Source: Nocardioides mesophilus
Lineage (GTDB): Bacteria; Actinomycetota; Actinomycetes; Propionibacteriales; Nocardioidaceae
Length of the DNA stretch: 64,000 nucleotides
Direction of reading: 5' to 3'
Assembly (NCBI RefSeq): GCF_014395785.1
Contig: NZ_CP060713.1
Location: 62,001 to 126,000 of the forward strand
The translations under genes and the position numbers were made by a program. Of this stretch, positions 36,019-51,957 are shown in pieces (within the stretch, counting starts at the first letter, position 1; each line of letters starts with the position of its first letter). A model generated the notes under the pieces. That model had not been told where the DNA came from, did not search any database, and saw only the letters and a program-made list of their open reading frames with translations.

Positions 36019-36273
36019 GCGCCGCGTCCCTCCGGGTTCTCGTCGCCCTCGCGGGCAATCCGGAGGCCTCGGTCGCGCGAATCCCTGTCGGAGGCTGAGA
36101 AGTCCCTGAGATCGTGCCCGTCCGGCAACTTGTGGCAGACGTCAGACGTCCTACAGGCGAAGGGTTCGGGAAGTCAGGGGCTCTTCGGGAATCCCGGTCC
36201 GCTCCCATCCGTTGGAACGAGTACCGGGGACTACCGGTGGGTACATCCCCCGGCAACGAGGAAGGGAGCGCAC

Positions 36274-37224
36274 GTGGCAACGAGTCGCACGCACACACGC
36301 GAGATCGAGGGACGCGACAGCGTCGGCATGTACCTCGACGAGATCGCGCGTACTCCGCTGCTTGACGCCGTCACCGAGGTCGAGCTGAGCAAGGCCATCG
36401 AGGCCGGGCTGCTCGCCCAGCACCTGCTCGACGAGGGTCGGGTCGGTCGCCGCAAGGGTGGTGCGCCGAAGTACGCCACCCAGGAAGAGCTGGAGTGGCT
36501 GGTCGAGGAGGGCGAGCGCGCCGTCCAGCAGTTCATCGAGGCCAACCTGCGGCTCGTGGTCTCCATCGCCCGCAAGTACGGCCGGAGCCAGATGCCGATG
36601 CTGGACCTGGTCCAGGAGGGCAACACCGGCCTGATCCGTGCGGTCGAGAAGTTCGACTACCGCAAGGGTTTCAAGTTCTCCACCTACGCCACCTGGTGGG
36701 TCCGCCAGGCGATCACCCGCGGCATCGCGCAGCAGGCCCGCGTGGTGCGGCTGCCGGTGCACGTCGTCGAGGAGCTGAACCAGGTCGGTGCGGCACGCCG
36801 TACCCTCGAGCGCCAGCTCGGCCGGGACCCGGAGCCGGAGGAGATCGCCCAGGAGCTGGGCATGGACTTCGACCGGGTGCTGGACCTGATGAGCTGGGGC
36901 CGTGAGCACGTCAGCCTCGACACCCCGGTGGACGAGAACGGCGATACCTCGCTGGGCGACCTCATCGCCCAGGAGACCGCTCCGGGACCGGACAGCACCT
37001 TCCTCGACGTCGAGTCGCGGGACCGGCTGAGCACCCTGGTCGAGCTCCTCGACGACCGGGCGGCCGACATCATCCGGTCGCGCTACGGCCTGGCCGACGG
37101 TCGTCAGCACAAGCTCGCCGACATCGGCGCCAAGCACGGCATCTCCGCCGAGCGGGTGCGCCAGCTCGAGCGGGAGGCGCTGCAGAAGCTCCGCACGCTG
37201 GCCGATCCCGACCTGGCCGCCTGA
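36274..37224 (+). CDS. sigB: group 2 sigma factor (SigB-like)
   Basis: A 316-residue sigma-70 factor lacking the long N-terminal region of SigA. Region 1.2 is DSVGMYLDEIARTPLLD, region 2 is [20 protein letters not shown] and continues to [20 protein letters not shown], and region 4 ends HGISAERVRQLEREALQKL. It corresponds to mycobacterial SigB/principal-like factors, which assist at stress and stationary-phase promoters. The GTG at 36274 is supported by AAGGGAG (36262-36268); the longer frame from 36130 is less likely. The direct repeat CAGACGT (36136-36149) lies in the upstream region. The gene converges with coaE, five bases apart. Confidence 0.92.
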   Translation: MATSRTHTREIEGRDSVGMYLDEIARTPLLDAVTEVELSKAIEAGLLAQHLLDEGRVGRRKGGAPKYATQEELEWLVEEGERAVQQFIEANLRLVVSIARKYGRSQMPMLDLVQEGNTGLIRAVEKFDYRKGFKFSTYATWWVRQAITRGIAQQARVVRLPVHVVEELNQVGAARRTLERQLGRDPEPEEIAQELGMDFDRVLDLMSWGREHVSLDTPVDENGDTSLGDLIAQETAPGPDSTFLDVESRDRLSTLVELLDDRAADIIRSRYGLADGRQHKLADIGAKHGISAERVRQLEREALQKLRTLADPDLAA

Positions 37225-37228
37225 CCGG

Positions 37229-37822
37229 TCAGCCGGCCCGTCGTACCAGCTCGCCGAAGACCTCCGTGACCCTGTCGCGGAGGTCTTCGCGCGTCCCGGT
37301 GTTGTCCAGGACGTACGTCGCCACCTCCCGACGCTGCGCCCGCGTGGCCTGTGCCGCGATCCGGGCCCCGGCGTCCTCGGGCGACATGCCGCGGTCCGCG
37401 ACCATCCGTCGCACCTGGGTCTCCTCGGGCACGTCGACCACCAGGACGGCGTCGAAGCCGCCGGCCTGACCGGTCTCGGTGAGCAGCGGGATGTCGTGGA
37501 CCACCACGGCACCCGCCGGGGCCTGCGCCTCGATCTCGGCGGCCCGGGCCCGCACCAGCGGGTGGATGATGGCCTCCAGCCGCCTCCGGGCGTCGGGGTC
37601 GGCGAAGACCAGCGCCCCCACCGCCGGCCGGTCCAGCTCGCCGTCGGCGGTCAGCACCCCGGACCCGAACTCGGCGACGACGCGGCGCAGCCCGTCGGTG
37701 CCCGGCGCCACCACCTCACGCGCCAGGACGTCCGCGTCGACCACCACCGCCCCCAGCTCGCGCAGGATCGCCGCCGCGGTGCTCTTCCCCGAGGCCACTC
37801 CCCCGGTCAGTCCGACTCTCAC
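37229..37822 (-). CDS. coaE: dephospho-CoA kinase
   Basis: Catalyses the last step of CoA synthesis, phosphorylating the 3'-hydroxyl of dephospho-CoA. It has 197 residues. The P-loop VGLTGGVASGKST lies at residues 3-15, with DADVLAREVV and the HDIPLLTETG segment also typical. The GTG at 37822 begins three residues before the P-loop strand and is the usual CoaE start; the longer frame to 37876 is Pro/Gly-rich and unlike the family. In many actinobacteria coaE lies close to rpsA, whereas here a 14-kb block intervenes. Confidence 0.94.
   Translation of the reverse strand: MRVGLTGGVASGKSTAAAILRELGAVVVDADVLAREVVAPGTDGLRRVVAEFGSGVLTADGELDRPAVGALVFADPDARRRLEAIIHPLVRARAAEIEAQAPAGAVVVHDIPLLTETGQAGGFDAVLVVDVPEETQVRRMVADRGMSPEDAGARIAAQATRAQRREVATYVLDNTGTREDLRDRVTEVFGELVRRAG
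37255..37289 (+). terminator. terminator for sigB inside the 3' end of coaE
   Basis: CGAAGACCTCCG (37255-37266) and CGGAGGTCTTCG (37278-37289) form a perfect 12-bp stem with an 11-base loop. It begins 31 bases after the sigB stop, within codons near the C terminus of coaE on the opposite strand. The short palindrome CTGACCGGTCAG (37221-37232) contains both stop codons. Confidence 0.55.
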
Positions 37823-37901
37823 CGCGCCAGTCTCCCAACCCCTACCCGGCCCCGTCGGCGCGGGTGCCCCGGGCACGCCGGGCGCGAGCGGGCGCGAGCC
37901 T

Positions 37902-38999
37902 TCACCAGGTGCGGGTCACCTTGGTGAGCTCGCCGGGGTGGTCCAGGTCGACGCCGCGCAGCTCCGCGACCCGACGCGCCAGCAGCTGGCCGGCGACGAC
38001 GGCGGTGATCGGGGTCAGCCAGCCGGGCAGCGCAGCCTCCGGAGGAAGCTCGACGAGCAGCACCGGCGCCGGCGGGCCACCGGGTCCGGCTTCCTGCCCC
38101 ACCGGTCCGGAGGCTTCGACCACGGGCCGGGCCGAGGCGTCGCCCACCACGATGACCGGGGCGCCGCGGCGCCGCAGCTCAGGGAGCAGACCGAGAACGC
38201 TGGCGCTCGCCGGCTCGTCGGGGGCGATGAGGACGGCGGGCGCGTCGGGGCCGACCGCGGCGATCGGCCCGTGCAGGAGGTCGGCCGGCGAGAACGGCAT
38301 CACCAGGGTGCCGGTCAGCTCGGTGAGCTTCAGCGCTGTCTCGTGGGCGGTGGCCAGGTTCACCCCCCGACCGACACAGACGGCGCGGTCGTACGTCGAC
38401 AGCAGACGTGCCGCCGCGTCCACGCCCCTCGTCCCGTCGACGGCTGCGTGCAGCGCCTCGGGCACCCGCCTGACCTCCGCGGCCTCGGAGGGGTCCCGAC
38501 CGGCCAGCGCGTGCGAGAGCAGCGCCACCGCGAGCAGCGAGGTGGTGTAGGTCTTGGTCGCCGCCACCGACCTCTCCGGCTCGGCAGCCAGGGCCAGCAC
38601 GTGCCCGGCCGCGGCGGCGAGCTCGGACCCGGCCTCGTTGGTCACCGCCAGGGTGGGCCTGCCGTCGGCTCTGGCGGTCTCGACGAAGCGGACGATGTCG
38701 GGCGAGGAGCCGGACTGGGAGATCGCCACCACCGAGTGGTGGCGCAGCTCGAGGCGCCGGCCGTAGACGCTGACCAGGCTGGGCGTGGCGAGCGCGACCG
38801 GCAGCCCGTGCCGCAGCCCCCAGAGGTACTGCGCGTAGCGGGCGGCGTTGTCGGAGGTGCCGCGAGCGACGATCACGACCCCCGCCGTGCCCGGCCCGCG
38901 GACCACGGCGGCCAGCTCGTCGAGGAGCGGCCACGCCTGGGTGAGCAGCCGGGCCGCCGCCTCGGGTTGCTCGTGCATCTCGTCCTCGAGCCGGGTCAT
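37902..38999 (-). CDS. SIS-domain sugar isomerase/deaminase (GlmS/AgaS-like)
   Basis: A 365-residue protein with two SIS domains, as in the isomerase half of GlmS. The sugar-phosphate loops are VARGTSDNAARYAQYL (about residues 44-59) and ISQSGSSPDIV (about 93-103). The second domain contains GRGVNLATAHETALKLTEL. No glutaminase domain is present. In the cluster it follows NagA with a 4-base overlap, so it most likely deaminates or isomerises glucosamine-6-phosphate to fructose-6-phosphate in place of NagB. That role is inferred from context. It is the last gene of the recycling cluster; 79 bases separate it from coaE. Confidence 0.87.
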   Translation of the reverse strand: MTRLEDEMHEQPEAAARLLTQAWPLLDELAAVVRGPGTAGVVIVARGTSDNAARYAQYLWGLRHGLPVALATPSLVSVYGRRLELRHHSVVAISQSGSSPDIVRFVETARADGRPTLAVTNEAGSELAAAAGHVLALAAEPERSVAATKTYTTSLLAVALLSHALAGRDPSEAAEVRRVPEALHAAVDGTRGVDAAARLLSTYDRAVCVGRGVNLATAHETALKLTELTGTLVMPFSPADLLHGPIAAVGPDAPAVLIAPDEPASASVLGLLPELRRRGAPVIVVGDASARPVVEASGPVGQEAGPGGPPAPVLLVELPPEAALPGWLTPITAVVAGQLLARRVAELRGVDLDHPGELTKVTRTW

Positions 39000-40135
39000 C
39001 CGGCTGCTCCCACGAGGTCGGCTTCCACGGGGATGCCTCCGAGGAGGGTCTGCACGACCGTCAGGTCCTCGGCGTCGAGCACGACCACGTCCGCACGCGC
39101 CGAAGGACGGAGCCGCCCGATGTCGTCCCGACCGAGCAGCCGGGCCGGGGCCTCGGTCACCGCGACCAGTGCCTCGACGGGATCGGCGCCCAGCGCGCAG
39201 GCGTTGCGGACGGCGGCGTCCAGGGTGAGCGCGGACCCGGCGAGGGCCCCCTGCCCGTTGCGCACGGCGCCGCCACGCACCTCGACCGGGAGGCCGGCCA
39301 GCGCGTAGGTGCCGTCGTCGAGAGCAGCCGCCGCGGTGGCGTCGGTCACCATCACCACCCGGCCGCGACCGGCGGCCCAGGCGACCCGGACGGCGTCGTC
39401 GGCGAGGTGGTGCCCGTCGATGACCAGCTGGAGGACCACGTCGGGCCGGGCCAGCGCCGCCCCGGGCAGGCCGGGCTCGCGGTGGTGCAGCGGGCTCATC
39501 GCGTTGAAGAGGTGGGTGACGGTGCGCGCCCCGGCGGCGAAGCCGGCGTGCGCCTGGGCCGCGGTCGCATCGGAGTGGCCGAGCGAGACCAGGACCCCGG
39601 CGGCGCTCAGGTCACGGACCAGGTCCAGGGCGCCGGGCAGCTCGGGGGCCAGCGTGACCGCGACGACCGGGGCCCGGTCCCGCCACCGCCGCAGCAGCTC
39701 GGGGTCGGGATCGCGCCGGTGCTCCGCGGCGTGGGTGCCGAGCCGGCGCGCGGAGAGGAACGGCCCCTCCAGGTGCACCCCGAGGGGCCGGGAGCCGGCC
39801 GGGTCGCCGGGACCGGCGAGGACCCCGGCCAGCACGTCGAGCGCCCGGTCGGTCTCGGCCGGGGAGGCGGTGATCAAGGTGGGCAGCCAGGACGTGACCC
39901 CGTGGGCGGCCAGGCGCCGTGAGACGTGGGCGATCCCGTCCTCGTCGGCGCCCATCACGTCGACCCCGGCGAAGCCGTTGACCTGCAGGTCCACGAAGCC
40001 GGGCGCCGCGAGACGCCCCCCGGCCGCCGGAGCGAGCCCGACCCTGGTGATCTCGTCGTCCTCGATCTCCACGTCACCGGGCGTCAGGACCCCCTCGACG
40101 AGGGCGGCCGACACCCCGAGTCTTCTGGTCGTCAT
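38996..40135 (-). CDS. nagA: N-acetylglucosamine-6-phosphate deacetylase
   Basis: Removes acetate from GlcNAc-6-phosphate, giving glucosamine-6-phosphate. It has 379 residues in an amidohydrolase fold. APGFVDLQVNGFAGVDVM (about residues 44-61) has Gln where many homologs have His, a common variant. Metal and substrate ligands are in HLEGPFLS, LGHSDAT, THLFNAMSPLHHREPG and VTDAT. The ATG at 40135 shares one base with the anmK stop (TGATG). The last four bases overlap the SIS gene. In this sequence the reading frame upstream stays open through anmK to the MurQ fusion because the latter has lost its stop. Confidence 0.93.
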   Translation of the reverse strand: MTTRRLGVSAALVEGVLTPGDVEIEDDEITRVGLAPAAGGRLAAPGFVDLQVNGFAGVDVMGADEDGIAHVSRRLAAHGVTSWLPTLITASPAETDRALDVLAGVLAGPGDPAGSRPLGVHLEGPFLSARRLGTHAAEHRRDPDPELLRRWRDRAPVVAVTLAPELPGALDLVRDLSAAGVLVSLGHSDATAAQAHAGFAAGARTVTHLFNAMSPLHHREPGLPGAALARPDVVLQLVIDGHHLADDAVRVAWAAGRGRVVMVTDATAAAALDDGTYALAGLPVEVRGGAVRNGQGALAGSALTLDAAVRNACALGADPVEALVAVTEAPARLLGRDDIGRLRPSARADVVVLDAEDLTVVQTLLGGIPVEADLVGAAG

Positions 40136-41331
40136 CAGTGCACCTTCCTCGTCGAGACCCGGAGCGCACCGGGTCCTTGTGCCGCCGGCTCCGGGAGACG
40201 CAGGGGGTGGTCCCCCGGACTGATCCGGCCGAGCACGCGGGACACCGGGGCGCCGGTGGCCGGGGACGCCCCGGCGACGCCGTGCCACGTCAGGAACCCC
40301 AGGACGGCCCACATCACGCCTTCCTTGGCGTGGGCGGGCAGGCCGAGGTCGTCGCTGGGACGCACTCGCGCGGGCCCGAGATGCCGCACGAGCGCGTCCC
40401 AGAGGGCGGGGTTGCGGACCCCGCCGCCGGAGGCCACCACCTCGGTGACCGCGAACGGCTCCAGAGCCGCCGCGACGGTGCGGGCGGTGAGCTCGGTCAG
40501 CGTGGCCAGCAGGTCGTCGGAGGACACCGGCCCGGACGCGGTGAGGACGGAGTCGAGCCAGGTCGCGGAGAAGGTCTCGCGCCCGGTGGACACCGGCGGC
40601 GTCGCGCCGAAGTGCGGGTGGGCGAGGAGCCGCTCGAGCAGCGGCGCCGAGACCTTCCCGCGCCGGGCCATCGCACCGTCGAGGTCGCAGCGCAGCGCGC
40701 CGCCGGAGGCCCGGGCGGCGGCCACGTCGAGCAGGCAGTTGGCCGGGCCGGTGTCCCAGGCGAGCAGCGGTCGACCGGGGGCGAGCACGCTGACGTTGGC
40801 GATGCCGCCGAGGTTGAGCGCGGCCACCGGCCCGTGCCGGTCGGCGAGGTCGCGCAGCCACAGCTCGTCGAAGCGGCCGACGAGCGGGGCGCCGTGACCG
40901 CCGGCGGTGACGTCGCGGGCACGCAGGTCGGAGACCACGGGCAGCCCGGTGGCTTCGACCACCCACGCCGGCTGGCCGACCTGCAGGGTGCCGAGGCAGA
41001 CGCCGTCGCGCACCTCGTGGTGCACGGTCTGTCCGGGCGAGACGACCAGGTCGGGTCGGCGGCCGGTCAGGGCTTCGACCCGGTCGGCGGCCGTCGCCGC
41101 TGCCGCACCGATCGCCCGGCCGACCTCGTTGTCGAGCGCGCAGAGCTCGGCGGCGGTGGTGGTGGCCGGCGGGAGCACGGCGAGCAGCCGGTCGGCGAGG
41201 CCCTCCGGCCACCCGACGCTCGCCGAGTCGAGGACCTCGACGCTCAGGTCGTCGGCGGCCGGCTCGACCTCCACGGCCGTGACGTCGAGGCCGTCGGCGG
41301 AGGTGCCGGAGGCGACGGACAGCACGATCAC
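40135..41331 (-). CDS. anmK: anhydro-N-acetylmuramic acid kinase
   Basis: Opens and phosphorylates 1,6-anhydro-MurNAc, the product of lytic transglycosylases, to MurNAc-6-phosphate. It has 398 residues of the ASKHA fold. The start has the typical phosphate loop VASGTSADGLDVTAVE (about residues 6-21). VVSPGQTVHHEV, LNLGGIANVSVL and AWDTGPANCLLD follow in the usual order, and VASGGGVRNPALWDAL closes the second domain. The GTG at 41331 has GGGGGAG six bases upstream and overlaps the expected MurQ stop (GTGA). Its presence implies that the organism recovers anhydro-muropeptides. Confidence 0.93.
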   Translation of the reverse strand: MIVLSVASGTSADGLDVTAVEVEPAADDLSVEVLDSASVGWPEGLADRLLAVLPPATTTAAELCALDNEVGRAIGAAAATAADRVEALTGRRPDLVVSPGQTVHHEVRDGVCLGTLQVGQPAWVVEATGLPVVSDLRARDVTAGGHGAPLVGRFDELWLRDLADRHGPVAALNLGGIANVSVLAPGRPLLAWDTGPANCLLDVAAARASGGALRCDLDGAMARRGKVSAPLLERLLAHPHFGATPPVSTGRETFSATWLDSVLTASGPVSSDDLLATLTELTARTVAAALEPFAVTEVVASGGGVRNPALWDALVRHLGPARVRPSDDLGLPAHAKEGVMWAVLGFLTWHGVAGASPATGAPVSRVLGRISPGDHPLRLPEPAAQGPGALRVSTRKVH

Positions 41332-43321
41332 GGGCGCTCCCCCGAGCGGCCGCGAGCGAAGCCCGGGCCCGGCCACCGGCCGCGTCGAGCAGCACCCGGG
41401 CCCGGTCGACGTCCACCTCGCCCAGCAGCGCCACCAGGGCGGTCTTGGTGCGCCAGCCGGACTGCTCGAGCACCTCGGCGGCACGCTCGTCGTCGACCCC
41501 GGTGGCCTCGCGCAGCATCCGGCGGGCGCGGCGGCGCAGCTTCTCGTTGGAGGCGGTCACGTCGACCATCCAGGCGCCGTAGGTCTTGCCGTGCCCGACC
41601 ATCGCCCCCGTCGAGAGCACGTTGAGGGCCACCTTCTGGGCGGTGCCGGCCTTCAGCCGCGTCGAGCCGGAGAGCACCTCCGGGCCGGTGAGCAGCTCGA
41701 CGGGCACGTCGGCGGCCGCGGCAGCCGGGCTGCCCGGGTTGTTCACGATCGCCACCGTGCGGCAGCCCGCGGCACGGGCATGGGCCAGCGCTGCCAGGAC
41801 GTACGGCGTCCGGCCGGACGCGCTGATCCCGACCACGAGGTCCTGCGGGGCGAGCCCGAGGGCGGCGACGTCGCGGGACCCGGCGGCGGCGTCGTCCTCG
41901 GCACCCTCGACCGCGCGGGCCGAAGCCTCTCCCCCGCCGGCGAGCACCGCGACCACCTGGTCCGGCGAGGTGCCGAAGGTCGGCGGGCACTCGGCGGCGT
42001 CGAGGGCGGCGAGGCGGCCGGGGGTGCCCGCGCCGACGTAGACGATCCGGCCGCCGGCGTCGAGCGTCGCGGTCGCCAGGGTGATCGCCTCGGCCAGCGC
42101 GTCGGCAGCGGCGGCGACCGCGGCCGGCACCGTCGCCTCGGCGGCCAGCAGCTCGGCGACCACCGCCGCCGGGGGGCGCTGGTCGAGGTCGTCGAGGTCG
42201 CGGCGGACCTGCTCGGTCGCGAGCAGGTCCACGTCGACGTCGGCGGCCGAGGTGCTGCCGGGGGTACCGGGGATGCCGGTCGCCGTGTGGGTGGCGGCGC
42301 CGGTCGCGGTCTGGGTGGCGGTGTGGGTGGCGGCGCCGGTCGCGGTATGGGTGGCGGTGCCGGTCGCGGTGCCGGTGTTGGCGGTGCTGCCGGTGCCGGC
42401 CCGGGCCGGCCGCCGCAGCAGCCGGGACTCGTGCGGCAGGTCGTCACGGCCGGCGAGCAGCAGCGCACCGTCGAGCGAGGTGCCCTGCGCGGGCACCACC
42501 TCGCAGTGCGCGGGCAGCAGCGCACCCCACCGCTGCACGAGCAGCGGCGCGGCCGCCAGCCCGCCGACGACGCAGACCGGAACGGGGGTCCCGGAAGGCT
42601 GTGCGGCCGCGACGACGAGGTCCGCCCAGGCGGATGCCGCGTCCTCGACGATGCCGACCGCCAACGCGTCGCCGGCGTCCGCGGCCGCGAGCACGTCGGG
42701 GGCGAAGGAGGCCAGCGTCCGGGCCGGCGCCCCGCCCGCCGCCACCGTGCGGGGCAGCAGCCGCAGGTCGCCGAAGCGCTCCGCTGCGGCGTGCGCGAGG
42801 GTGGTGTCGGTGCCGCGGCCGTCGAGCCGGCGCAGCGCGGCTCGTAGCCCCTGCCGGCCGATCCACGCGCCGCTGCCCTCGTCGCCGAGCCACGGTCCCC
42901 ACCCGTCGACCTGGCGCAGGCCACCGTCCGCGGAGAGCCCGAGCGCGACCGACCCGGTGCCCACCGCGAGCACCGTGCCGGGCCGTCCGGTCAGGGCGCC
43001 GGCGTGCGCGGTCACCGAGTCCGAGGTGACCGCGATCGTGGCCCCGGGCAGCCACTCGCCCAGGCGCTCGGCCAGCGCAGCGGTGGCGTCCGGCGCGGCC
43101 TCCGCACCGGCCGCGCCGACCACCAGAGCGGCGAGCACCGCCGGGTCGGGCAGCGCCCGGGCGAGGACGGCCGAGACCGCCTCGAACGCGGCGTCGACCC
43201 CGCCGGCCTCGGCCAGACCCGGCGCGCCCGGGCCCTCGACGGGCGGGCGGGGTGCGTCGGCCTCCTGGACCAGGACCCGGCAGCCGGTCTTGCCCAGGTC
43301 CACGCCGGCCAGGGGGTTCAT
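41328..43321 (-). CDS. murQ: amino-sugar kinase (BadF/BadG, MurK/NagK-like) fused to MurQ etherase; 3' frameshift
   Basis: Residues 1-300 are an ASKHA kinase (GVDLGKTGCRVLV, AVGTGSVALG, WLGDEGSGAWIGR) resembling GlcNAc kinases and clostridial MurK, which phosphorylates MurNAc and GlcNAc. Residues about 345-660 are MurQ (VGAGTPGRLAALDAAECPP, VEGAEDDAAAG, ISASGRTPYVLAAL), which converts MurNAc-6-phosphate to GlcNAc-6-phosphate and lactate. A Thr/Ala-rich linker joins them. In the given sequence no stop follows MurQ: the frame stays open to 38996. Adding one G to the G5 run at 41339-41343 gives ...SLAAARGERP and a TGA overlapping the anmK GTG, so I place the end at 41328. The ATG at 43321 overlaps the nagZ stop (ATGA). 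Confidence 0.87.
42275..42370 (-). repeat. 24-bp tandem repeat encoding the kinase-MurQ linker
   Basis: Units GCCGGTCGCGGTNTGGGTGGCGG occur at 42275-42298, 42299-42322 and 42335-42358, with a half unit at 42323-42334 and a partial copy from 42359. On the coding strand they specify Thr/Ala-rich, His/Gly-spaced repeats (TATHTATGAATHTAT pattern). Unit length is a multiple of three, so copy-number changes keep the frame. Confidence 0.75.
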
Positions 43322-44775
43322 CGGGTCTCCTCGAGGATCAGGTCGGCGGCGGCTCGCGCGGTGGCGCGGCCACCCCCGTGGGTGTGCACGGTGTGGTCGC
43401 CGGGATCCGACGCGCCGGCCGGGCCGCCGTACACCACGACGCTGTCGGGGCGCTCGTCGAGCACCGCGCGCACGGTGTCGACCGCCTCCGCGTCGAGCCG
43501 ACCGTCGACGACCACCACGACCCGGCGCCCGTCCGCGGCGACCCCGCGGGCCCGCGTCGCGTCGGCGTCGGCGACCACCGGCCACGACGGCCGCCTGGCC
43601 GTGAGCTCGGCGACCAGCGCGGACTCCCGCCGGCCGGCGGCGAAGCCGACCGCGGTGCGCGGCACCAGGACGACGGCGTCGTCGCGTACGCCGACCTCGC
43701 CGCGCACCTGCAGCGCGCAACGGGCAGCGGAGACCCCGAGGTCCGCGGGCTGGGGGGTGCGGGGTCGGCCGGCCTGCTGCGCGGCCCAGGCGCCGAGCGC
43801 CGCGACGCGGCCGGACGCCTCCTCGAGCCGCTCGCGGGTCAGCCTGCCTCCCGCCACGGCCGCGACCACGGCGGCGACCACCTCCTCGACGGCGGCCTCG
43901 TCGTCGTAGGGGTCGGGGAAGTCGGGGTTGCCGATGCAGAGCAGGTCGACGCCCGCCTCGAGCGCCCGCACCGCCCCCTCGGCCCGGCCGACGCCGTGCG
44001 AGATCGCCCTCATGTCCAGCGCGTCGCTGACGATCACGCCGTCGTAGTCGAGCTCCTCACGCAGCAGCCGCAGCACAGGTGCACTCATCGTGGCAGGGAC
44101 CGCGTCGAGCGCCGTGAGGACGACGTGCGCGGTCATCACGCAGCGGGTGCCGGCCCCGACCGCGGCCGTGAACGGCGGCAGGTCGCGGCGCCGCCAGGTG
44201 GCCTCGTCGACCTCGATCACCGGCAGCGCGACGTGGGAGTCGGTGCGTGTCGCGCCGTGCCCGGGGAAGTGCTTCGCGCAGGCGGCCACTCCCGCCGCCT
44301 GCAGGCCCTCGACGAACTGCGCGCCGTGCCGCGCCACCAGGGCGGGGTCGGCGCCGAACGAGCGCACCCCGATCACGGGGTTGTCCGGCTCGGAGGCCAC
44401 GTCGACGACGGGGGCCGCGACCACGTCGATCCCGGCGGCCCGGGCGGCCGCGCCGAGACCCCGCGCCACGTCGTACGTCGTCCGCGGGTCGTCGAGCGCG
44501 CCGAGCGTGCCGTGGCCCGGCCACGACGAGCCGGTGGCCGACTCCATCCGGGTGACGGTGCCGCCCTCCTCGTCGGAGGCGACCAGCACCCCGGCCCGTC
44601 GCGCGTGCAGCTCGTCGGTGAGTCTGCGCAGCTGCGCGGGGTCGACCACGTTCTGCCCGAACAGGCAGACGCCGGCCAGCCCACGGTCCAGCCAGTCCAG
44701 CAGCCAGTCGGGGGCGGACGCCGATGAGAAGCCGGGCAGCAGCACCGAGGCGGCCAGGCGTTCCAGCGCGGTCAT
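43318..44775 (-). CDS. nagZ: beta-N-acetylhexosaminidase, GH3 (NagZ)
   Basis: This GH3 enzyme cleaves GlcNAc from GlcNAc-(anhydro)MurNAc disaccharides or peptides. It has 485 residues. KHFPGHGATRTDSH (168-181) carries the Asp179-His181 acid/base dyad and VIVSDALDM has the nucleophile Asp251. After the TIM barrel (about residues 1-330) comes a C-terminal domain of about 150 residues that is shorter than in two-domain plant-type GH3 enzymes. No signal peptide is seen, so action is expected in the cytosol after import. It overlaps both neighbours by four bases. Confidence 0.93.
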   Translation of the reverse strand: MTALERLAASVLLPGFSSASAPDWLLDWLDRGLAGVCLFGQNVVDPAQLRRLTDELHARRAGVLVASDEEGGTVTRMESATGSSWPGHGTLGALDDPRTTYDVARGLGAAARAAGIDVVAAPVVDVASEPDNPVIGVRSFGADPALVARHGAQFVEGLQAAGVAACAKHFPGHGATRTDSHVALPVIEVDEATWRRRDLPPFTAAVGAGTRCVMTAHVVLTALDAVPATMSAPVLRLLREELDYDGVIVSDALDMRAISHGVGRAEGAVRALEAGVDLLCIGNPDFPDPYDDEAAVEEVVAAVVAAVAGGRLTRERLEEASGRVAALGAWAAQQAGRPRTPQPADLGVSAARCALQVRGEVGVRDDAVVLVPRTAVGFAAGRRESALVAELTARRPSWPVVADADATRARGVAADGRRVVVVVDGRLDAEAVDTVRAVLDERPDSVVVYGGPAGASDPGDHTVHTHGGGRATARAAADLILEETR

Positions 44776-45668
44776 CCCTTCACCGCGCCCGCGACCAGCC
44801 CGGAGCTCAGCCGGCGCTGCACCAGGATGAAGAAGATCATCACCGGCAGCGTGATCAGGGTGGAGCCGGCCATCACCGCACCCCAGTCGGTGCCGTACTG
44901 GGTGAAGAACTGCCGCAGGCCGGCGGCCACGGTGTAGGAGTCCTGGTCGTTCATGAAGGTGATCGCGAAGACGAACTCGTTCCAGGCGGTGATGAAGGAG
45001 AACACGCTGGTGGCGACCAGGCCGGGGGCGCACAGCGGCAGCAGCACCGACCAGAACATCCGTGGCCAGGACGCGCCGTCGACGTACGCCGCCTCCTCGA
45101 CCTCCTTGGGGATCGCCGCCGCGAAGCCGCGCATCATCCAGATCGCGAACGGCAGCGAGAACGCCACGTAGACGATCACCAGGCCGAGCAGGTGGTTGAG
45201 CATGCCGAGGTTCTTGGCCTGGATGAACAGCGGGATCACCAGCGCCTCCATCGGCACCATCTGGATGACCAGCACCATCACCAGCAGCGCCGTGCGGAAC
45301 CGGAAGACGAAGCGGGCCACCGCGACAGCCGCGAGCAGCGCCAGCAGGCTGCTGACCACCACCGTGGACAGCGCGACGAACAGCGAGTTGACGAGATAGG
45401 TCGTGAACCCGCCCTCGTCGAGCACGAAGCGGAAGTTGTCCCAGGTCAGGTCGGTCGGCAGCAGCGAGGTGGAGCCGTCGTTGGCGCGCGCATCGACCGC
45501 GGTGGTCAGCATCACCAGCACCGGGAACAGGCTGAACGCCAGCACGGCCGCGCAGCCCAGGGCGACCAGGACCCGCGACCCGCCGCGGCGTCGACCCCGC
45601 CTCGGGGCAGCACGGCGCCCAGACGGTGGCTGGGGAGTGAGCGTCTGGGGCGCGGTCAGCTGGCTCAC
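44772..45668 (-). CDS. carbohydrate ABC transporter permease (MalG type)
   Basis: A 298-residue permease with six expected membrane helices after a basic N-terminal tail (about residues 15-30). The EAA loop is EVEEAAYVDGASWPRMFWSV, followed by LLPLCAPGL, the contact site for the ATPase. It ends QRRLSSGLVAGAVKG, the usual CUT1 permease tail. The GTG at 45668 overlaps the stop of the MalF-type gene (GTGA). It works with the upstream permease and binding protein. No ATPase gene occurs in the cluster. Confidence 0.92.
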   Translation of the reverse strand: MSQLTAPQTLTPQPPSGRRAAPRRGRRRGGSRVLVALGCAAVLAFSLFPVLVMLTTAVDARANDGSTSLLPTDLTWDNFRFVLDEGGFTTYLVNSLFVALSTVVVSSLLALLAAVAVARFVFRFRTALLVMVLVIQMVPMEALVIPLFIQAKNLGMLNHLLGLVIVYVAFSLPFAIWMMRGFAAAIPKEVEEAAYVDGASWPRMFWSVLLPLCAPGLVATSVFSFITAWNEFVFAITFMNDQDSYTVAAGLRQFFTQYGTDWGAVMAGSTLITLPVMIFFILVQRRLSSGLVAGAVKG

Positions 45669-46651
45669 AGCTCCTCCTGACGGAACAGCGTCCGCAGGTA
45701 CACCGCGGTGATCACCAGCAGCAGGGCCGTGAGCAGGACCGCGATGGCGGCGCCGAGCCCGTACCTGTTCTGGGAGATGGCGGTGATGTAGGACCAGGTG
45801 CCGAGGTTGAGCACGTCCCGGTTGGTGCCGGAGCCTCCCGGCATCAGGTAGATCTGCGTGAACACCTTGAAGTCCCAGATCGTCGACAGGATCGTCACCA
45901 CTGCGAACACCGGCTTGAGCAGCGGCACGGTGACCGACCAGAACCGCCGCCACGCACCGGCGCCGTCGAGCTCGGCGGCCTCCATCAGCTCCTGCGGCAG
46001 CGTCATGAGTGCCGCGAGCACGGTCACCGCCACGAACGGGAACCCGTGGTGCACGACGTTGAGGGTGGCGATCGCGTAGAAGGGCAGCCGTTCGGTGAAC
46101 CAGTTGGTGGTGTCGGGGTCGACCAGACCGAGCGTGCTCAGTCCGCGCATCACCATGCCGCTGCGCGGGTCGAACAGGAGCACCCACACGTAGGTGCCGG
46201 TGACCGCCGGCATCGCCCAGGCCACCATGATCGCGCTGGTCAGCACGCCACGGGTCCAGACGCCGACCCGGGCCAGGAGGAGCGCGACGAGCGTGCCCAG
46301 CCCCACCGTGAGGACCACGTTGACCACGGCGAACACGACCGTGTTCGGCAACGCCACCTTCCACAGCAGCGGGTCGGTGAGCAGCTCGGCGAAGTTGTCC
46401 AACCCGACCCACTGGCTCTCCCCGGTGACCAGCTGCCGGAGGCCGAAGTCCTGCAGCGACAGCACCAGGACCCGGTAGAGCGGGTAGAGCAGCAGCCCGC
46501 CGAGCACGGCGAGGGCCGGGGCCAGCAGCAGCCACGGCAGCCAGCGGGGGGTGAGGCCCGTCCCGCGCCGGGGACCGGGCCCCGCCGGCCGACGGGCGCC
46601 GGTGCGGCGCTCCTCGTCGGCCGGCGGGACGGACGCGATCGTCGACGTCAT
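45665..46651 (-). CDS. carbohydrate ABC transporter permease (MalF type)
   Basis: A 328-residue CUT1-family permease with six membrane helices after a disordered Pro/Arg-rich tail of about 35 residues. The EAA loop is ELMEAAELDGAGAWRRFWSV, followed by PLLKPVF. It ends AVYLRTLFRQEEL. It forms the translocation channel with the MalG-type partner. Its start lies nine bases after the binding-protein stop and its end overlaps the next gene by four bases. Confidence 0.92.
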   Translation of the reverse strand: MTSTIASVPPADEERRTGARRPAGPGPRRGTGLTPRWLPWLLLAPALAVLGGLLLYPLYRVLVLSLQDFGLRQLVTGESQWVGLDNFAELLTDPLLWKVALPNTVVFAVVNVVLTVGLGTLVALLLARVGVWTRGVLTSAIMVAWAMPAVTGTYVWVLLFDPRSGMVMRGLSTLGLVDPDTTNWFTERLPFYAIATLNVVHHGFPFVAVTVLAALMTLPQELMEAAELDGAGAWRRFWSVTVPLLKPVFAVVTILSTIWDFKVFTQIYLMPGGSGTNRDVLNLGTWSYITAISQNRYGLGAAIAVLLTALLLVITAVYLRTLFRQEEL

Positions 46652-46660
46652 CGGGCCGGC

Positions 46661-47986
46661 TCAGCTCCCGGCCGCGAAGATGGCGTCCATCTCCTTCGCC
46701 GCCTGCTCGGTCGCCTCCTGCACCGAGGCGTCCCCGGACAGGATCGACTGCAGCATCGCGGCGACGGTCTTCTTGCCCTGGACCTGGCCGTAGAGCGGGG
46801 TGACCGGGAGGCTGGCACCGCCCTCGACCATCTGCTGGGCGAAGGGCGCGACGACCGGGTCTTCCTCGGCCTGCACCTGCTCGAGCAGCTTCTTGGTGCC
46901 CGGGAAGAAGCCGGACTGCTCGCCCCACTCGGCGGCGAGGTCGCCGGTCGCCATGGTCTCGACCAGGGCGAACGCGAGGTCGGGGTTCTCGGTGCCCTGG
47001 AAGACGCCGAGGTGCGAACCGCCCAGGAACGACGGGGAGATCCCGCCGTCCTGCCCGGGGATCGGGAAGGCGCCGATCTTGCCCTTCAGGTCGGGGTTCG
47101 CCTCGACGAGGGCCCGCGGGGTCCAGCTGCCGGAGATCATCATCGCCACGTCACCGCGGGCGAAGGCGTCGGAGAGATCGGCTTCGTCCCAGGTGGTCGC
47201 GGCCGGGGTGGAGAAGCCGTGCTCGAGGGCGAGGTCGGTGTAGAACTCGATGCCCTCCTGCGCCTCGGGGGAGTCGATCGTGCTGGTCCAGCTGTCGCCG
47301 TCCTGCTCGGCGATCCGGCCGCCGGCACCCCAGATGAACGGGTAGACGCCGTACTCGCTGTCGCCGGGCACCGGGAGGGTGACCATGTCGGGGTTCGCCT
47401 TCTTCAGCTTCTCCCCCGCGGCGACCAGCTCGTCCCAGCTGGTCGGCGGCGTCACGCCTGCCTGGTCGAACACGTCGGTGCGGTAGACGAAGGACCGGAC
47501 GCCGGCGTACCACGGCATCCCGTAGAGCCCATCGTCGACGGTGCCCGCCTGCACCAGGCCCGGGACCAGCTGCTCCTCGAGGCCGGCCTTCTCGACCGGT
47601 CCGCTGAGGTCCATCAGCGCGCCCGCGGCGGCGAACTCCGGGGTCCACGTGGTGCCGATCTCGGCGACGTCAGGGGTGGTGTCGCCCGCGATCGCGTTCA
47701 CGAACTTGTCGTGCGCCTCGGCCCAGGGCACGAACTGCACGTCCAGCGTGGCGCCGGTCTTGTCCTCGAAGGCTGCCTTCAGGTCCTCGACGTAGGGCTC
47801 TGCATTCGGGTTGGTGCCCTCCATGATCCAGAGGCTCAGCTCCTCGCCCTCGCCGGAGACCTCGCCGCTCCCGGCCTGGTCGAACTCCGACCCTGCGGAC
47901 GACCCCGAGGCGTCGCTCCCGCAGGCGGAGAGCGGCGCCAGGACGGCGAGTGCGGCCAGCCCGACCGCCACGCGATTCCACTTCAT
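46661..47986 (-). CDS. extracellular sugar-binding lipoprotein of ABC importer
   Basis: A 441-residue family 1 solute-binding protein. The signal peptide ends in the lipobox LSACG (lipidated Cys22), so the mature protein is membrane-anchored. LSLWIMEGTNPNAEPYVEDL starts the first lobe, and PDVAEIGTTWTPEFAAAGAL (about residues 88-107) is typical of CUT1 binding proteins. Based on the linked enzymes the ligand is probably an amino sugar, a GlcNAc-MurNAc disaccharide or chitobiose; the sequence itself does not fix this. The ATG at 47986 is preceded by AAGGA; the longer frame to 48100 crosses the operator. Upstream lies the candidate GntR operator. Confidence 0.92.
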   Translation of the reverse strand: MKWNRVAVGLAALAVLAPLSACGSDASGSSAGSEFDQAGSGEVSGEGEELSLWIMEGTNPNAEPYVEDLKAAFEDKTGATLDVQFVPWAEAHDKFVNAIAGDTTPDVAEIGTTWTPEFAAAGALMDLSGPVEKAGLEEQLVPGLVQAGTVDDGLYGMPWYAGVRSFVYRTDVFDQAGVTPPTSWDELVAAGEKLKKANPDMVTLPVPGDSEYGVYPFIWGAGGRIAEQDGDSWTSTIDSPEAQEGIEFYTDLALEHGFSTPAATTWDEADLSDAFARGDVAMMISGSWTPRALVEANPDLKGKIGAFPIPGQDGGISPSFLGGSHLGVFQGTENPDLAFALVETMATGDLAAEWGEQSGFFPGTKKLLEQVQAEEDPVVAPFAQQMVEGGASLPVTPLYGQVQGKKTVAAMLQSILSGDASVQEATEQAAKEMDAIFAAGS

Positions 47987-48040
47987 TGCTGTCCTTCCCT
48001 GATGCTGGTCGAAACGGGACCGCCGAGTCAGCCGCCACCG

Positions 48041-48066
48041 AGACCATCGGCCTAGACCTTTGGTCT
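48041..48066. promoter_or_regulatory. candidate GntR-family operator before the importer operon
   Basis: Three half-site-like elements cluster here: AGACCA (48041-48046), GGCCTAGACC (48049-48058) and TTTGGTCT (48059-48066). CTAGACC also occurs in the site at 50618-50633, and both resemble the DasR-type dre consensus TGGTCTAGACCA with mismatches. The position, 55-80 bases before the binding-protein start, suits a repressor site. The regulator at 48162-48902 is the likely ligand. Confidence 0.5.
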
Positions 48067-48161
48067 GCCATTCATTCCACAGGGAGAGGGTCGCCGTCAA
48101 GACTCACACGCCGGCGCGTCGCCTCGGGCGCCGACCTGGTCGAGGAGCCGGCCCGCTGGGC

Positions 48162-48902
48162 TCACCCGGCGGCGGGCTCGGGCGGGAAGATGTCGGCGAC
48201 GATCCGGTAGCGGTCACCGCGGTAGAGCGAGCGGACGAACTCGGCCACCTCGCCCGTCGCGACCCGTGAGGTCCGCTCGAACAGGAACACCGGCGCGCCG
48301 GCCTCGACCCCGAGCAGCTCGGCGTCCTCCGCCCCGACCAGGGCCGGCTCCGCGGTCTGGGTGCCCGAGACGACCGGGTTGTGGTACCTGCCCGCGAGCA
48401 GGTCGTAGAACGATGTGCCGTCCAGGTCGGCGCCGGTCAGCCCGGGGGCTACCGTGCTCGGCACATGCAGGTCCTCCACCGCCATCGGCAGCCCGTCGGC
48501 CAGCCGGAGCCGGCGGATGTGCACCACCTCGGTGCGGGGCGGCACGTCGAGCAGCGAGGACAGCATCATCCCGGCGGCGAACCGGCGCGTCAGCAACGTC
48601 CTGCTGCCCGGCTCCATCCCCCGGGCGCGCATGTCGGCCGAGAACGAGGTGGCCGCGAGGCGCTGGGTCAGCTTGCCGGCGGAGACGAACGTCCCCGACC
48701 CCTGCCGCCGGATCAGCCGCGACTCCTCCACCAGCGAGTCCACCGCGCGGCGCAGGGTCATCCGGGCCACGCCGAGGTCGCGGGCCAGGTCGCGCTCGAC
48801 CGGAAGCGGCTCGCCCGGCGCCAGGCCCGCGATCAGCTGCTCCAGGCGCGCCCGCACCTGCTGCTGCTTCGGCGTCCCGGGCCGGGTGGCGGCGTTGCTC
48901 AC
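48162..48902 (-). CDS. GntR-family regulator (HutC/UTRA type, DasR/NagR-like)
   Basis: A 246-residue repressor. The N-terminal winged helix-turn-helix (about residues 10-75) includes LPVERDLARDLGVARMTLRR and IRRQGSGTFVS. The UTRA effector domain (about residues 90-243) contains the strands EVVHIRRLRLADGLPMAVED and FLFERTSRVATGEVAEFVRS. UTRA regulators such as DasR and NagR sense phosphorylated amino sugars, which fits the cluster. The GTG start at 48902 is chosen by homology. The gene lies between the glycosidase and the importer in the same direction. The effector is inferred. Confidence 0.9.
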   Translation of the reverse strand: MSNAATRPGTPKQQQVRARLEQLIAGLAPGEPLPVERDLARDLGVARMTLRRAVDSLVEESRLIRRQGSGTFVSAGKLTQRLAATSFSADMRARGMEPGSRTLLTRRFAAGMMLSSLLDVPPRTEVVHIRRLRLADGLPMAVEDLHVPSTVAPGLTGADLDGTSFYDLLAGRYHNPVVSGTQTAEPALVGAEDAELLGVEAGAPVFLFERTSRVATGEVAEFVRSLYRGDRYRIVADIFPPEPAAG

Positions 48903-48963
48903 GGGCCATTGGTACAGCACGCAGCCACGCGGCCACAAACGAACCGCCCGACAGGTGCGCCGC

Positions 48964-50559
48964 TCATCGCACCTCGATGCGGCGCGGGACGCTCTCCCGG
49001 TAGGCCCGGTCCAGCGCGGTGACGTAGTAGGTCACCCCGTCGGACGGAGCCGCCTCGTCGAGGTACGCCTGGTCCCCCTCCGAATCGGCCCGGAACCAAC
49101 CCAGCAGGTGCTCGGCGTCGGCGGTGTCGCACAGGTCCGCACTGCGCCCCGACACCCGGTAGATCGCGTAGGCGGCGTCGTCGCCGTCCCAGGTCAGCCG
49201 GATGCCGTCGGGGGTCCGCTCCGCGGCGACGGCTCCGACCGGTCGCGGCGCTCGGCCCGGCACGCCCTGGGTCACCGGGATCAGGGCCGGGTGGGCGTAG
49301 TGGTCGGCCTGGACGAGGTCCATGTGGCCGAGACGGTTGGCGCGCACGTCCTTGGCGGAGAAGTAGATGTCGCCCTGCACCTGCGGGAAGTCCCGGTTGA
49401 AGGTCAAGTGCCGGGTCATCTCCTCCGGGTCGGCCCAGGCCGGCGACTGCGTCGAGGTGCCGACCTTGTAGGTGGCCTGGCCGATGTAGAGCTGCGCGTC
49501 GGTGCCCTCGACCTGCTCGGCCCACCAGGGCACCAGCTTCGCGTAGTCGGCCGGCGCGAAGCCGATGTTCCAGTAGACCTGCGGGGCGATGTAGTCCAGC
49601 CAACCCTTGCGGACCCAACCGCGCGTGTCGGCGTAGAGGTCGTCGTAGGTCTCCGCTCCCGCGGTCGTCGCGGACCCCTCGGGATCGGTGCCGGCGTTGC
49701 GCCAGACGGCGAAGGGGCTGACCCCGAACTTCACCCACGGCTTCACCGCGTGGATCTGCTGGTCCAGCTCGGAGACCAGCAGGTCGGTGTTGTGGCGGCG
49801 CCAGTCGCCGACGGTGTCGAAGCCGTCGCCGTACGTCGCGTAGGTGTCGGCGTCGGGGAAGTCCACCCCACCGGCCGGGTAGGGGTAGAAGTAGTCGTCG
49901 AAGTGCACCGCGTCGATGTCGTAGCGCGTGGTGGCCTCGAGGATCACGTCCTCGACGTGGCGGCGGACCGCCGGGATCCCCGGGTTGTAGTAGAGCTTCC
50001 CGCCGTAGGAGACCAGCCAGTCCGGGTGCCGCCGCGCCGGGTGGTCGGGTGCCAGCGCCTCCCGGTCGGTGTTCATCGACACCCGGTAGGGGTTGAACCA
50101 GGCGTGGAACTCCAGGTTGCGCGCGTGCGCCTGCTCGACGGCGAAGGCCAGGGGGTCGTAGCCGGGGTCACCGCCGGGGGTGCCGGTGAGGTAGCGCGAC
50201 CAGGGCTCGAGGTCGGAGGGCCAGAACGTGTCGGCGGTCGGGCGGACCTGGACGACGACGGCGTTCAACCCGCGGGCGGCGGCCTCGTCGTACCACTGCT
50301 CGAGCTCCGCCTTCTGGTCCGCGACGCTCAGGCCGGGGCGCGAGGGCCAGTCGATGTTGACCACGCTCGCGATCCAGTCACCGCGCAGCTGCCGCTTGGG
50401 TGCGTCCGGCGCGACCGCACAGTCGCGTCCCTGGGCGCCGGGGGGCCGGGCCGCTCCCGTGCCGGTCGAGCCCGCCGAGGCGGCGGGCGCCGCCACCAGG
50501 CAACCGAGTCCGAGGGCGGAGCAGGCCAGCACAGCGGCCGCTCGTGACGTTCCACGCAT
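48964..50559 (-). CDS. secreted GHL10-family glycosidase (DigH-like)
   Basis: A 531-residue secreted protein. The signal peptide ends near APAASA (about residue 28), and the GHL10 (family-10-like, DUF187) TIM barrel spans about residues 55-420. Catalytic-site stretches include GLNAVVVQVRPTADTFWPS, FHAWFNPYRVS and DAVHFDDYFYPYPAGGVDFP. A fibronectin-III-like C-terminal module (about 440-531) follows. E. coli DigH (YddW) of this family cleaves peptide-free peptidoglycan glycan strands. That activity would feed sugars to the importer downstream, which is inference from context. The start ATG has GGGAG nine bases upstream. A candidate operator lies 59 bases before the start. Confidence 0.88.
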   Translation of the reverse strand: MRGTSRAAAVLACSALGLGCLVAAPAASAGSTGTGAARPPGAQGRDCAVAPDAPKRQLRGDWIASVVNIDWPSRPGLSVADQKAELEQWYDEAAARGLNAVVVQVRPTADTFWPSDLEPWSRYLTGTPGGDPGYDPLAFAVEQAHARNLEFHAWFNPYRVSMNTDREALAPDHPARRHPDWLVSYGGKLYYNPGIPAVRRHVEDVILEATTRYDIDAVHFDDYFYPYPAGGVDFPDADTYATYGDGFDTVGDWRRHNTDLLVSELDQQIHAVKPWVKFGVSPFAVWRNAGTDPEGSATTAGAETYDDLYADTRGWVRKGWLDYIAPQVYWNIGFAPADYAKLVPWWAEQVEGTDAQLYIGQATYKVGTSTQSPAWADPEEMTRHLTFNRDFPQVQGDIYFSAKDVRANRLGHMDLVQADHYAHPALIPVTQGVPGRAPRPVGAVAAERTPDGIRLTWDGDDAAYAIYRVSGRSADLCDTADAEHLLGWFRADSEGDQAYLDEAAPSDGVTYYVTALDRAYRESVPRRIEVR

Positions 50560-50617
50560 GGATGATCTCCCGAGATGAGGTCTGCGGCGGCACCCGCGGA
50601 CCAGGCCGCGATGTACC

Positions 50618-50633
50618 AATGGACTAGACCAAT
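50618..50633. promoter_or_regulatory. candidate GntR operator before the glycosidase gene
   Basis: AATGGACTAGACCAAT is symmetric at 12 of 16 positions and differs from the dre core TGGTCTAGACCA at one position. It shares CTAGACC with the site at 48041-48066. It lies 59-74 bases upstream of the glycosidase start, suggesting co-regulation with the importer operon. Confidence 0.55.
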
Positions 50634-50719
50634 CAACCCGAAGTCCACCGTCTCGTCAACCCCCTAGATCAGAGCACGGGCACCGGAAGCGGCCGTTCTG
50701 CCAGGAGGGCACCGCTGGG

Positions 50720-51673
50720 TCAGCCGGCCTCGCTGAAGGTGCGCCGGTAGCGCTGCGGGCTCACCGACCGGGCCCGGGTGAAGTGGTGCCGCAGGGTGGC
50801 GGCGTTGCCGAAGCCGACCTCGTGGGCGATCCGGTCCACCGAGCGCCCGGTGGTCTCCAGCAGCTCCTCGGCGCGGAGCACCCGGCGGCTGGTGATCCAG
50901 GCGTGCGGGGTGGTGCCGGTCTCGGCGCGGAACCGGCGCGCGAAGGTGCGCGCCGACATCGACGCCCGGCGGGCCAGCTCCGCCACGGAGTGCTGCTCGT
51001 CGAGATGCTCGTCGAGCCAGGTCAGCAGCGGGGCGAGCGTGTCGGCGTCGTCGCAGGCGGCCACCGGGGTCCGGATGAACTGCGCCTGGCCGCCCTCGCG
51101 CTGCGGAGGGACCACCATCCTCCGGGCGATCTTGCCGGCTGCCGCGGCGCCGTACTCCTTGCGCCACAGGTGCAGGCAGGCGTCGATCCCGGCAGCGGTG
51201 CCCGCGCTGGTGATCACCGGGTCGGCGTCGACGTAGAGCACCTCCGGCACCACCCGGGCGCGCGGGTAGCGGGCGGCGAGCTCGGCGGTGTGTCGCCAGT
51301 GCGTGGTGCACTCCCGGTCGTCGAGCAGACCGGCCTCGCCGAGCACGAAGGCCCCGGAGCACACCGAGATCACCCGGGCACCTCGCGCGTGCGCGGCCCG
51401 GAGCGCCTCGACGAGCGCCGCGGGAACCGGCGCGTCGGTGTCGAAGGCCGGGACGCCCACCAGGTCCGCCTCGTTCACCCGCGCGAGGTCGTGCTCGACG
51501 GAGATCCCGAAGCCGCCGGAGGTGCGGTAGGTGCCGGGGCGGGGCGCGCAGACGGCGAAGTCGAGCACCGGCAGGCCGTCGTCGGAGCGGTCGGTCCCGA
51601 GCGCCTCACAGAGCACGCCGAGCTCGAAGGGGGCGATCCCGTCCGCGACCAGCACGGCGACGTTGGTGAGCAT
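50720..51673 (-). CDS. GlxA-type AraC regulator (DJ-1/PfpI domain plus HTH)
   Basis: A 317-residue GlxA-family regulator. The N-terminal DJ-1/PfpI-like domain (about residues 4-185) has the nucleophile-elbow segment VISVCSGAFVLGEAGLL with its cysteine. The C-terminal AraC DNA-binding domain (about residues 215-315) has two helix-turn-helices, VAELARRASMSARTFARRF and IAHEVGFGNAATLRHHF. The target is unknown. It is divergent from the 55-residue membrane protein gene, which may be one of its targets. Confidence 0.9.
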   Translation of the reverse strand: MLTNVAVLVADGIAPFELGVLCEALGTDRSDDGLPVLDFAVCAPRPGTYRTSGGFGISVEHDLARVNEADLVGVPAFDTDAPVPAALVEALRAAHARGARVISVCSGAFVLGEAGLLDDRECTTHWRHTAELAARYPRARVVPEVLYVDADPVITSAGTAAGIDACLHLWRKEYGAAAAGKIARRMVVPPQREGGQAQFIRTPVAACDDADTLAPLLTWLDEHLDEQHSVAELARRASMSARTFARRFRAETGTTPHAWITSRRVLRAEELLETTGRSVDRIAHEVGFGNAATLRHHFTRARSVSPQRYRRTFSEAG

Positions 51674-51767
51674 GGGACAGAGTCTGGCACAAGGTTGGCA
51701 GGAAATCGACGCACCCTGACCTGACTGCCACTCGTGGCAGTATCACGAGGAGCGCAGACTTGCTGCC

Positions 51768-51935: not shown

Positions 51936-51957
51936 GCCGCGTGCGCCGCGCACGACG

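Follow-up and report, generated by a model that had tools for sequence, protein, structure and literature searches.

Which transporter do actinobacteria use to take up the N-acetylmuramic acid (MurNAc) sugars of the cell wall? Mycobacterial MurNAc uptake has been ascribed, in an excerpt from a 2026 preprint, to an unknown transporter (PMC13041923), and a MurP orthologue was noted to be missing from Streptomyces coelicolor (PMC5061867). In the open-licence literature, we found no description of an actinobacterial ATP-binding cassette (ABC) importer for MurNAc sugars. Here, we analyze a 64,000-nucleotide stretch of the Nocardioides mesophilus genome (NZ_CP060713.1, positions 62,001 to 126,000; hereafter the window), in which genes for amino-sugar recycling follow the binding-protein and permease genes of an ABC importer. 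The original prediction, made from the letters of the window, linked this importer to the wall-sugar enzymes. The link was borne out in other genomes: NagZ accompanies the importer in 72 of 72 assessable loci with close relatives of the binding protein, and MurQ is present in all 16 sampled genomes that carry the binding protein. On balance we favor the view that the block is a peptidoglycan-glycan salvage operon, in which a GHL10-family enzyme would cut wall glycan, the ABC system would import disaccharides, and cytoplasmic enzymes would convert these to fructose-6-phosphate.

Gene content of the block and its importer

The nine genes from the GntR regulator to the sugar isomerase (SIS) protein are co-directional on the minus strand, in the order first predicted, and their products match fitting Pfam and NCBIfam families. 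The block should extend upstream to include the GHL10 gene at 48964-50619. Its features are given below in 5' to 3' order on the minus strand.

48964-50619, minus: secreted GHL10-family protein, Cwp19-like (PF02638, E 3.4e-87; Cwp19, PDB 5oq2, E 1.6e-115); same position in congeners G001 and G003
48162-48902, minus: GntR/UTRA transcription regulator (PF00392 and PF07702)
48043-48064, no strand assigned: palindromic operator-like site before the binding-protein gene, two mismatches to consensus; kept in loci with GntR
46661-47986, minus: solute-binding lipoprotein, lipobox LSAC by eye (SBP_bac_1, E 6.5e-50; model confidence 86)
45665-46651, minus: ABC permease 1 (PF00528)
44772-45668, minus: ABC permease 2 (PF00528)
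43318-44775, minus: NagZ-type GH3 beta-N-acetylglucosaminidase, no signal peptide by eye (PF00933; PRK05337, 195.8 bits, cut-off 207; catalytic signature)
41332-43321, minus: BadF-type sugar kinase fused to MurQ etherase (PF01869; TIGR00274, 311.7 bits, cut-off 302); frame without a stop, open to 38996
40135-41331, minus: AnmK, anhydro-MurNAc kinase, GTG start (NF007146, 480.5 bits, cut-off 440)
38996-40135, minus: NagA, deacetylase of N-acetylglucosamine (GlcNAc) 6-phosphate (TIGR00221, 252.2 bits, cut-off 225.65)
37902-38999, minus: SIS protein, NagB-II-like, putative glucosamine-6-phosphate (GlcN-6-P) deaminase (NF046059, 187.2 bits, cut-off 430; solved NagB-II 8eol, E 2.1e-34)

The genes had been described as overlapping by 1 to 4 bases from the permeases onward. 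From the coordinates, 4-base overlaps join permease 1 to permease 2, permease 2 to NagZ, NagZ to the kinase, and NagA to the SIS gene, and AnmK overlaps NagA by 1 base; a 9-base gap separates the binding-protein gene from permease 1. The description does not hold beside anmK, where the kinase-MurQ frame has no stop.

The importer has the parts of a CUT1-type sugar transporter, namely an SBP_bac_1 binding protein and two permeases. It had been thought to be the block's own complete system, but no ATPase is encoded among the block genes and we rejected a self-contained importer for that reason. The genome encodes one UgpC/MsiK-type ATPase above its cut-off elsewhere (2883039-2884187), which would drive this importer. 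The binding protein matched only SBP_bac_1 and SBP_bac_8 in Pfam and is not of the peptide type.

The original prediction also held that neither AmpG nor the MurP phosphotransferase system (PTS) occurs here, and our searches agree with it. There was no match to the AmpG model TIGR00901 in the genome, a single contig of 4.49 Mb, and the same search was positive in 5 of 14 control genomes. Four PTS IIC proteins (PF02378) are encoded, comprising one of GlcNAc/glucose type below its cut-offs, two of mannitol type and one of fructose type; none appears to be of MurP type, although no MurP-specific model was searched. Because of the GlcNAc/glucose-type protein, GlcNAc may have another entry route in this genome through its own PTS. 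Outside the block, we found a NagB-like protein below its cut-off (1544949-1545587), and the other PF01182 protein is a 6-phosphogluconolactonase.

Distribution of the importer and its neighbors

We scanned public species genomes for the binding protein, found 285 relatives and kept the best 80, most of them from Microbacterium. These were compared by tblastn together with two further loci (L026 and L027), giving 82 loci. Ten loci without 3.6 kb of downstream sequence were set aside, and the remaining 72 all carry both permeases and NagZ downstream of the binding protein, in the same direction. Sixty loci have 9 kb or more of flanking sequence in both directions. AnmK and MurQ occur in the same 19 of these, with a kinase match in 13, GntR in 10, NagA in 3, SIS in 1, and a GHL10 match in 6, two of which are weak (27-28% identity, L050 and L096). 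The full order from GntR to SIS recurs in two congeneric genomes, and as far as AnmK in a genome from another genus of the family, which had no NagA or SIS gene in the 18 kb taken. Thus, the gene order for which a search of other genomes had been suggested was found, and its recurrence in relatives is more than chance. AnmK occurs in three of seven genomes of the genus, counting that of the window. The kinase-MurQ fusion is present in one open frame in five further loci (L034, L054, L063, L076 and L027), and in L092 the two genes are adjacent and unfused. Two genes 3' of AnmK in L027 had no Pfam match.

MurQ matches were absent from 59 of the best 80 loci. We picked 26 of the corresponding genomes by hand (18 Microbacterium, 6 Pseudonocardia and 2 Arthrobacter), and each encodes a MurQ above its cut-off elsewhere, compared with 5 of 14 control genomes. 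The same association was seen across the class, in an evenly drawn sample of 216 genomes in which the binding protein was called at E <= 1e-90 and MurQ at E <= 1e-40. The binding protein was found in 16 genomes and MurQ in 83, and all 16 were among the 83; 67 of the other 200 genomes have MurQ without the binding protein. Fisher's test gave p 8.5e-8 when genomes were counted and 3.1e-5 when genera were counted (9 of 9 versus 21 of 77), values that are uncorrected for relatedness.

Leaving aside the genome of the window, 15 sampled genomes remain (17 kb examined in each). Both permeases follow the binding protein in all of them, NagZ in seven, AnmK in two and MurQ in one. The importer therefore accompanies MurQ throughout the sample, and NagZ in the closer half. 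Among the eight genomes without an adjacent NagZ, seven have binding proteins at 37-49% identity and one at 56%. Four of these eight whose neighbors were scanned (G146, G230, G238 and G263) have a CMAS gene of mycolate type next to the importer, and the neighbors of the importer in two sampled genomes without an adjacent NagZ (L150 and L137) included no wall-sugar gene. Distant importer homologues at 45-49% identity adjoin CMAS, away from NagZ, in L138, L143, L145 and L148; these genomes have MurQ.

We give about even odds to a broader reading, in which the binding protein and permeases represent an actinobacterial family of MurNAc-disaccharide importers. Such importers would use a shared ATPase and replace AmpG and MurP. 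In some lineages they would be tied to a GHL10 enzyme whose products, with anhydro and with reducing ends, would supply the two kinases. The same even odds cover the lineages that this family would span, which are Nocardioidaceae, Pseudonocardia, Arthrobacter, Oerskovia and Microbacterium, and more distantly the genomes in which a mycolate-type CMAS gene adjoins the importer.

The proposed pathway and the substrate of the importer

In the pathway that we propose, the secreted Cwp19-like GHL10 protein would cut wall glycan into pieces that end in anhydroMurNAc or reducing MurNAc, as suggested by its homologue. The lipoprotein and two permeases, with the shared UgpC/MsiK-type ATPase, would import GlcNAc-(anhydro)MurNAc disaccharides, which cytoplasmic NagZ would split. 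AnmK would then phosphorylate anhydroMurNAc, and the BadF-type kinase domain would phosphorylate MurNAc and/or GlcNAc. MurQ would take off lactate, NagA would deacetylate, and the SIS protein would deaminate GlcN-6-P to give fructose-6-phosphate. For this lineage, the pathway first predicted from the window is probably right. A role for the importer is well supported by linkage and co-occurrence, and its substrate is putative. What we observe directly is the gene content, the conserved linkage, the co-occurrence with MurQ and the conservation of the operator-like site; the substrates, activities and regulation are predictions.

At an E threshold of 0.001, Cwp19 of Clostridium difficile is the one distinct PDB sequence that the GHL10 protein matches. 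The listed start of its gene is TTG; an ATG 20 codons further in is likelier and is followed by a signal-peptide-like stretch, as judged by eye. We take DigH of Escherichia coli to belong to the GHL10 kind. Denuded glycans are degraded by DigH, according to the excerpt available (PMC12288456). Cwp19 is a lytic transglycosylase; those of its products that have reducing ends carried a terminal MurNAc free of peptide, where the authors of that study infer that hydrolysis takes place (PMC6016235). By analogy, the GHL10 protein encoded here may release both anhydroMurNAc and reducing MurNAc ends. A neighbor that makes both end types would explain why AnmK and a GlcNAc/MurNAc-type kinase share one operon. 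The earlier proposal that two kinases cover anhydro and reducing ends is supported, with the upstream gene as the likely source of both.

The enzymes are assigned with differing firmness. MurQ, AnmK and NagA pass their curated cut-offs. In the PDB, the kinase domain matches a bacterial NagK (1zc6, E 1.1e-19), the hexokinase 2e2n (8.9e-16) and, at 4.8e-15, a MurNAc/GlcNAc kinase (8zo3), so MurNAc and GlcNAc are only candidate substrates. The NagZ catalytic signature KHFPGHGxxxxDSH is present, and every linked relative that spans it (75 of 77) retains it, apart from the F in three of them. AnmK matched 131 plasmid records, all below 60% identity.

Several observations weigh against the proposed pathway. 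Three enzymes fall below their curated cut-offs, namely NagZ (195.8 bits versus 207, PRK05337), the kinase (80.9 bits versus 370 for the NagK model) and the SIS protein (187.2 bits versus 430, NF046059), and these are therefore named by type only. The arginine of the E. coli NagZ motif EGGRVQR is T here. The nearest solved folds of the binding protein, whose structure model has a mean predicted local distance difference test score (pLDDT) of 86, are binders of beta-glycosides and malto-oligosaccharides (beta- and alpha-glucosides; Z 38 to 44). Most of the best 80 loci come from Microbacterium, so the 72 loci are not independent. GHL10 adjoins few importer loci (above 55% identity in five of the best 80, and 41% in one), and the kinase-MurQ frame of the window is irregular. 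Finally, NagZ adjoins the importer in only 8 of the 16 class-sample genomes, counting that of the window, so the case for disaccharides is strong for close relatives only. Unlinked homologous loci had been named in advance as a finding that would count against the idea; NagZ is indeed away from the importer in half of the sampled genomes, but MurQ is present somewhere in all 16.

The binding-protein folds and the NagZ arginine bear directly on the substrate. Since the closest folds bind oligosaccharides, an oligosaccharide is the likely ligand, as judged from the structure model. The solved-structure and fold matches listed include many sugar binders and no MurNAc binder, which excludes nothing. 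The missing arginine corresponds by our reading to R67 of Pseudomonas aeruginosa NagZ, which has been called lactate-binding (PMC6572805). Its column holds mostly S, D, N, T, A or P across the linked NagZ family, and I in Bacillus subtilis NagZ. Muropeptides are the substrate of the B. subtilis enzyme (PMC5061867), and it also lacks the arginine; the T found here therefore decides nothing.

Could the importer instead take up chitobiose or other GlcNAc oligosaccharides for NagZ and the kinase, with the MurNAc genes housed alongside only because the routes meet at GlcNAc-6-phosphate? GlcNAc glycosides are substrates of NagZ-type GH3 enzymes, the best-scoring solved GH3 enzyme is named simply beta-N-acetylglucosaminidase, the lactate-binding arginine is not kept, and there is a weak match to the NgcE model. 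We nevertheless consider this explanation unlikely, because it leaves unaccounted for the presence of MurQ in all 16 sampled and all 26 picked genomes, and it must contend with the linkage of AnmK and MurQ in the same 19 of 60 loci and with the GHL10 gene upstream. Somewhat less likely still is an importer of monosaccharides, MurNAc and/or anhydroMurNAc, with NagZ serving another source of disaccharide. The eight class-sample genomes that have the importer and MurQ without an adjacent NagZ fit such an importer, but NagZ stands directly after the permeases in all 72 assessable close relatives, and by eye it has no signal peptide and so needs its disaccharide inside the cell. An unrelated sugar such as a glucoside, with the enzymes linked through shared regulation only, seems very improbable: the nearest solved binding proteins take beta-glucosides or malto-oligosaccharides, but their identity to the binding protein is just 22-29% among the matches listed, and linkage and MurQ co-occurrence speak against it.

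The proposed import of GlcNAc-(anhydro)MurNAc disaccharides would feed a pathway of a kind that is already known. As in E. coli-type catabolism of MurNAc and anhydroMurNAc (AnmK, MurQ, NagA and NagB), the block encodes members of the AnmK, MurQ and NagA families. In contrast to the E. coli type, there is an ABC importer with no AmpG match and no MurP-type PTS seen, the kinase is fused to MurQ, and a SIS-type deaminase would replace NagB in the block. The murQ-murR-murP-amiE-nagZ-ybbC cluster of B. subtilis likewise groups NagZ and MurQ in a Gram-positive bacterium, but there the PTS MurP carries MurNAc and NagZ is extracellular (PMC5061867), whereas the block has an ABC importer, AnmK and a NagZ without a signal peptide by eye. 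SCO4305-SCO4308 of S. coelicolor is also an actinobacterial cluster with MurQ and lacks a MurP orthologue; the excerpt that describes it names no importer (PMC5061867), and the cluster studied here has an importer, NagZ, AnmK and NagA. The YejBEF-YepA muropeptide importer of Agrobacterium is another ABC importer in the place of AmpG, but it is of the peptide type (PMC9790009), unlike the sugar-type SBP_bac_1 protein of the window. The GHL10 domain is shared with Cwp19 (PMC6016235), and the window protein differs in having no cell-wall-binding repeats by Pfam; the likeness is one of sequence. The kinase domain is BadF-type like 8zo3 and 1zc6, and differs from them in its fusion to MurQ. What sets the block apart is its type of importer, the fusion of kinase and MurQ, and the GHL10 gene attached to it, and we found no open-licence paper that describes such a block.

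The kinase-MurQ frame, regulation and wider meaning

Starting at 43321, the kinase-MurQ frame runs without a stop past anmK and closes only at the nagA stop (38996), a run of 1441 codons. Homology to MurQ ends at about residue 658, five codons ahead of the anmK start. The run-on (41332-41349, then to 38996, minus strand) passes through anmK out of frame. In all three relatives with the same gene order, MurQ is closed by a TGA that overlaps the anmK start codon, and for this reason we read the frame in the window as shifted by one base within the last few codons of MurQ. Fully open shifted frames also occur in both permease genes, and at 73% GC a long stretch free of stops is therefore nothing unusual. 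The missing stop probably reflects either a mistake in the assembly or a mutation sparing the MurQ domain. A genuine 1441-residue protein made of kinase, MurQ, a 400-residue run-on and NagA has the uninterrupted frame in its favor, but we rejected it as scarcely credible given the TGA in the three relatives, the open shifted frames of the permeases and a base composition by codon position (GC 0.94/0.80/0.56) that marks the run-on as a shifted frame, with the anmK frame looking like the coding one.

Congener G003 has a frame slip of its own, within the kinase part of its kinase-MurQ fusion (L026:8181-9063). The linker between kinase and MurQ in the window (42274-42376) is a tandem repeat with a 36-base period and 2.8 copies, in which Thr, Ala, Gly and His abound; G001 and G014 have short linkers.

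The regulator contains PF00392 and PF07702 domains, and no NCBIfam subfamily model was above its cut-off. The operator consensus of DasR, from the NagR/DasR-type GntR group to which the regulator may belong, is of the GGTCTAGACC type. Ahead of the binding-protein gene, at 48043-48064, lies a palindrome that resembles ACCAnAGGTCTAGACCTnTGGT; nowhere else does the genome come within three mismatches of this pattern. A site with at most seven mismatches stands 5' of the binding-protein gene in 12 of 15 loci with GntR, mostly as half sites (L054, L063 and L076 have none), and in 0 of 67 loci without GntR. The reversed pattern, used as a control at the same threshold, gave 0 of 15 and 1 of 67, respectively. 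The pattern was drawn from relatives of the window, two of which (L026 and L034) are among the 15. The GntR/UTRA protein would repress the operon from this palindrome.

A short box, ACCAATGG(C/T), lies at 48902-48920 directly before the gntR start; G001 and G014 share it, and G003 lacks it. Many loci, mostly from Microbacteriaceae, have an RpiR-type gene (HTH_6 plus SIS) near NagZ or MurQ instead of GntR. By crude clustering, this family occurs in 36 of 81 loci, with one member checked in Pfam (example L080:14619-15491). A scan for promoters and terminators found nothing promoter-like and a single terminator-like site, close to the mean of 0.9 in shuffled sequence, and an Rfam search of 36000-52000 gave no match. 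The next gene 3' of the block (37229-37876, minus strand) appears by eye to encode a dephospho-CoA kinase (CoaE) and to be unrelated to the operon.

An ABC importer that occurs with MurQ in all 16 sampled genomes having it is a concrete, testable candidate for the importer of MurNAc sugars that is still unknown in these bacteria. If the proposed role is true, wall turnover and nutrient scavenging would be tied to one regulated operon in a large group of bacteria.

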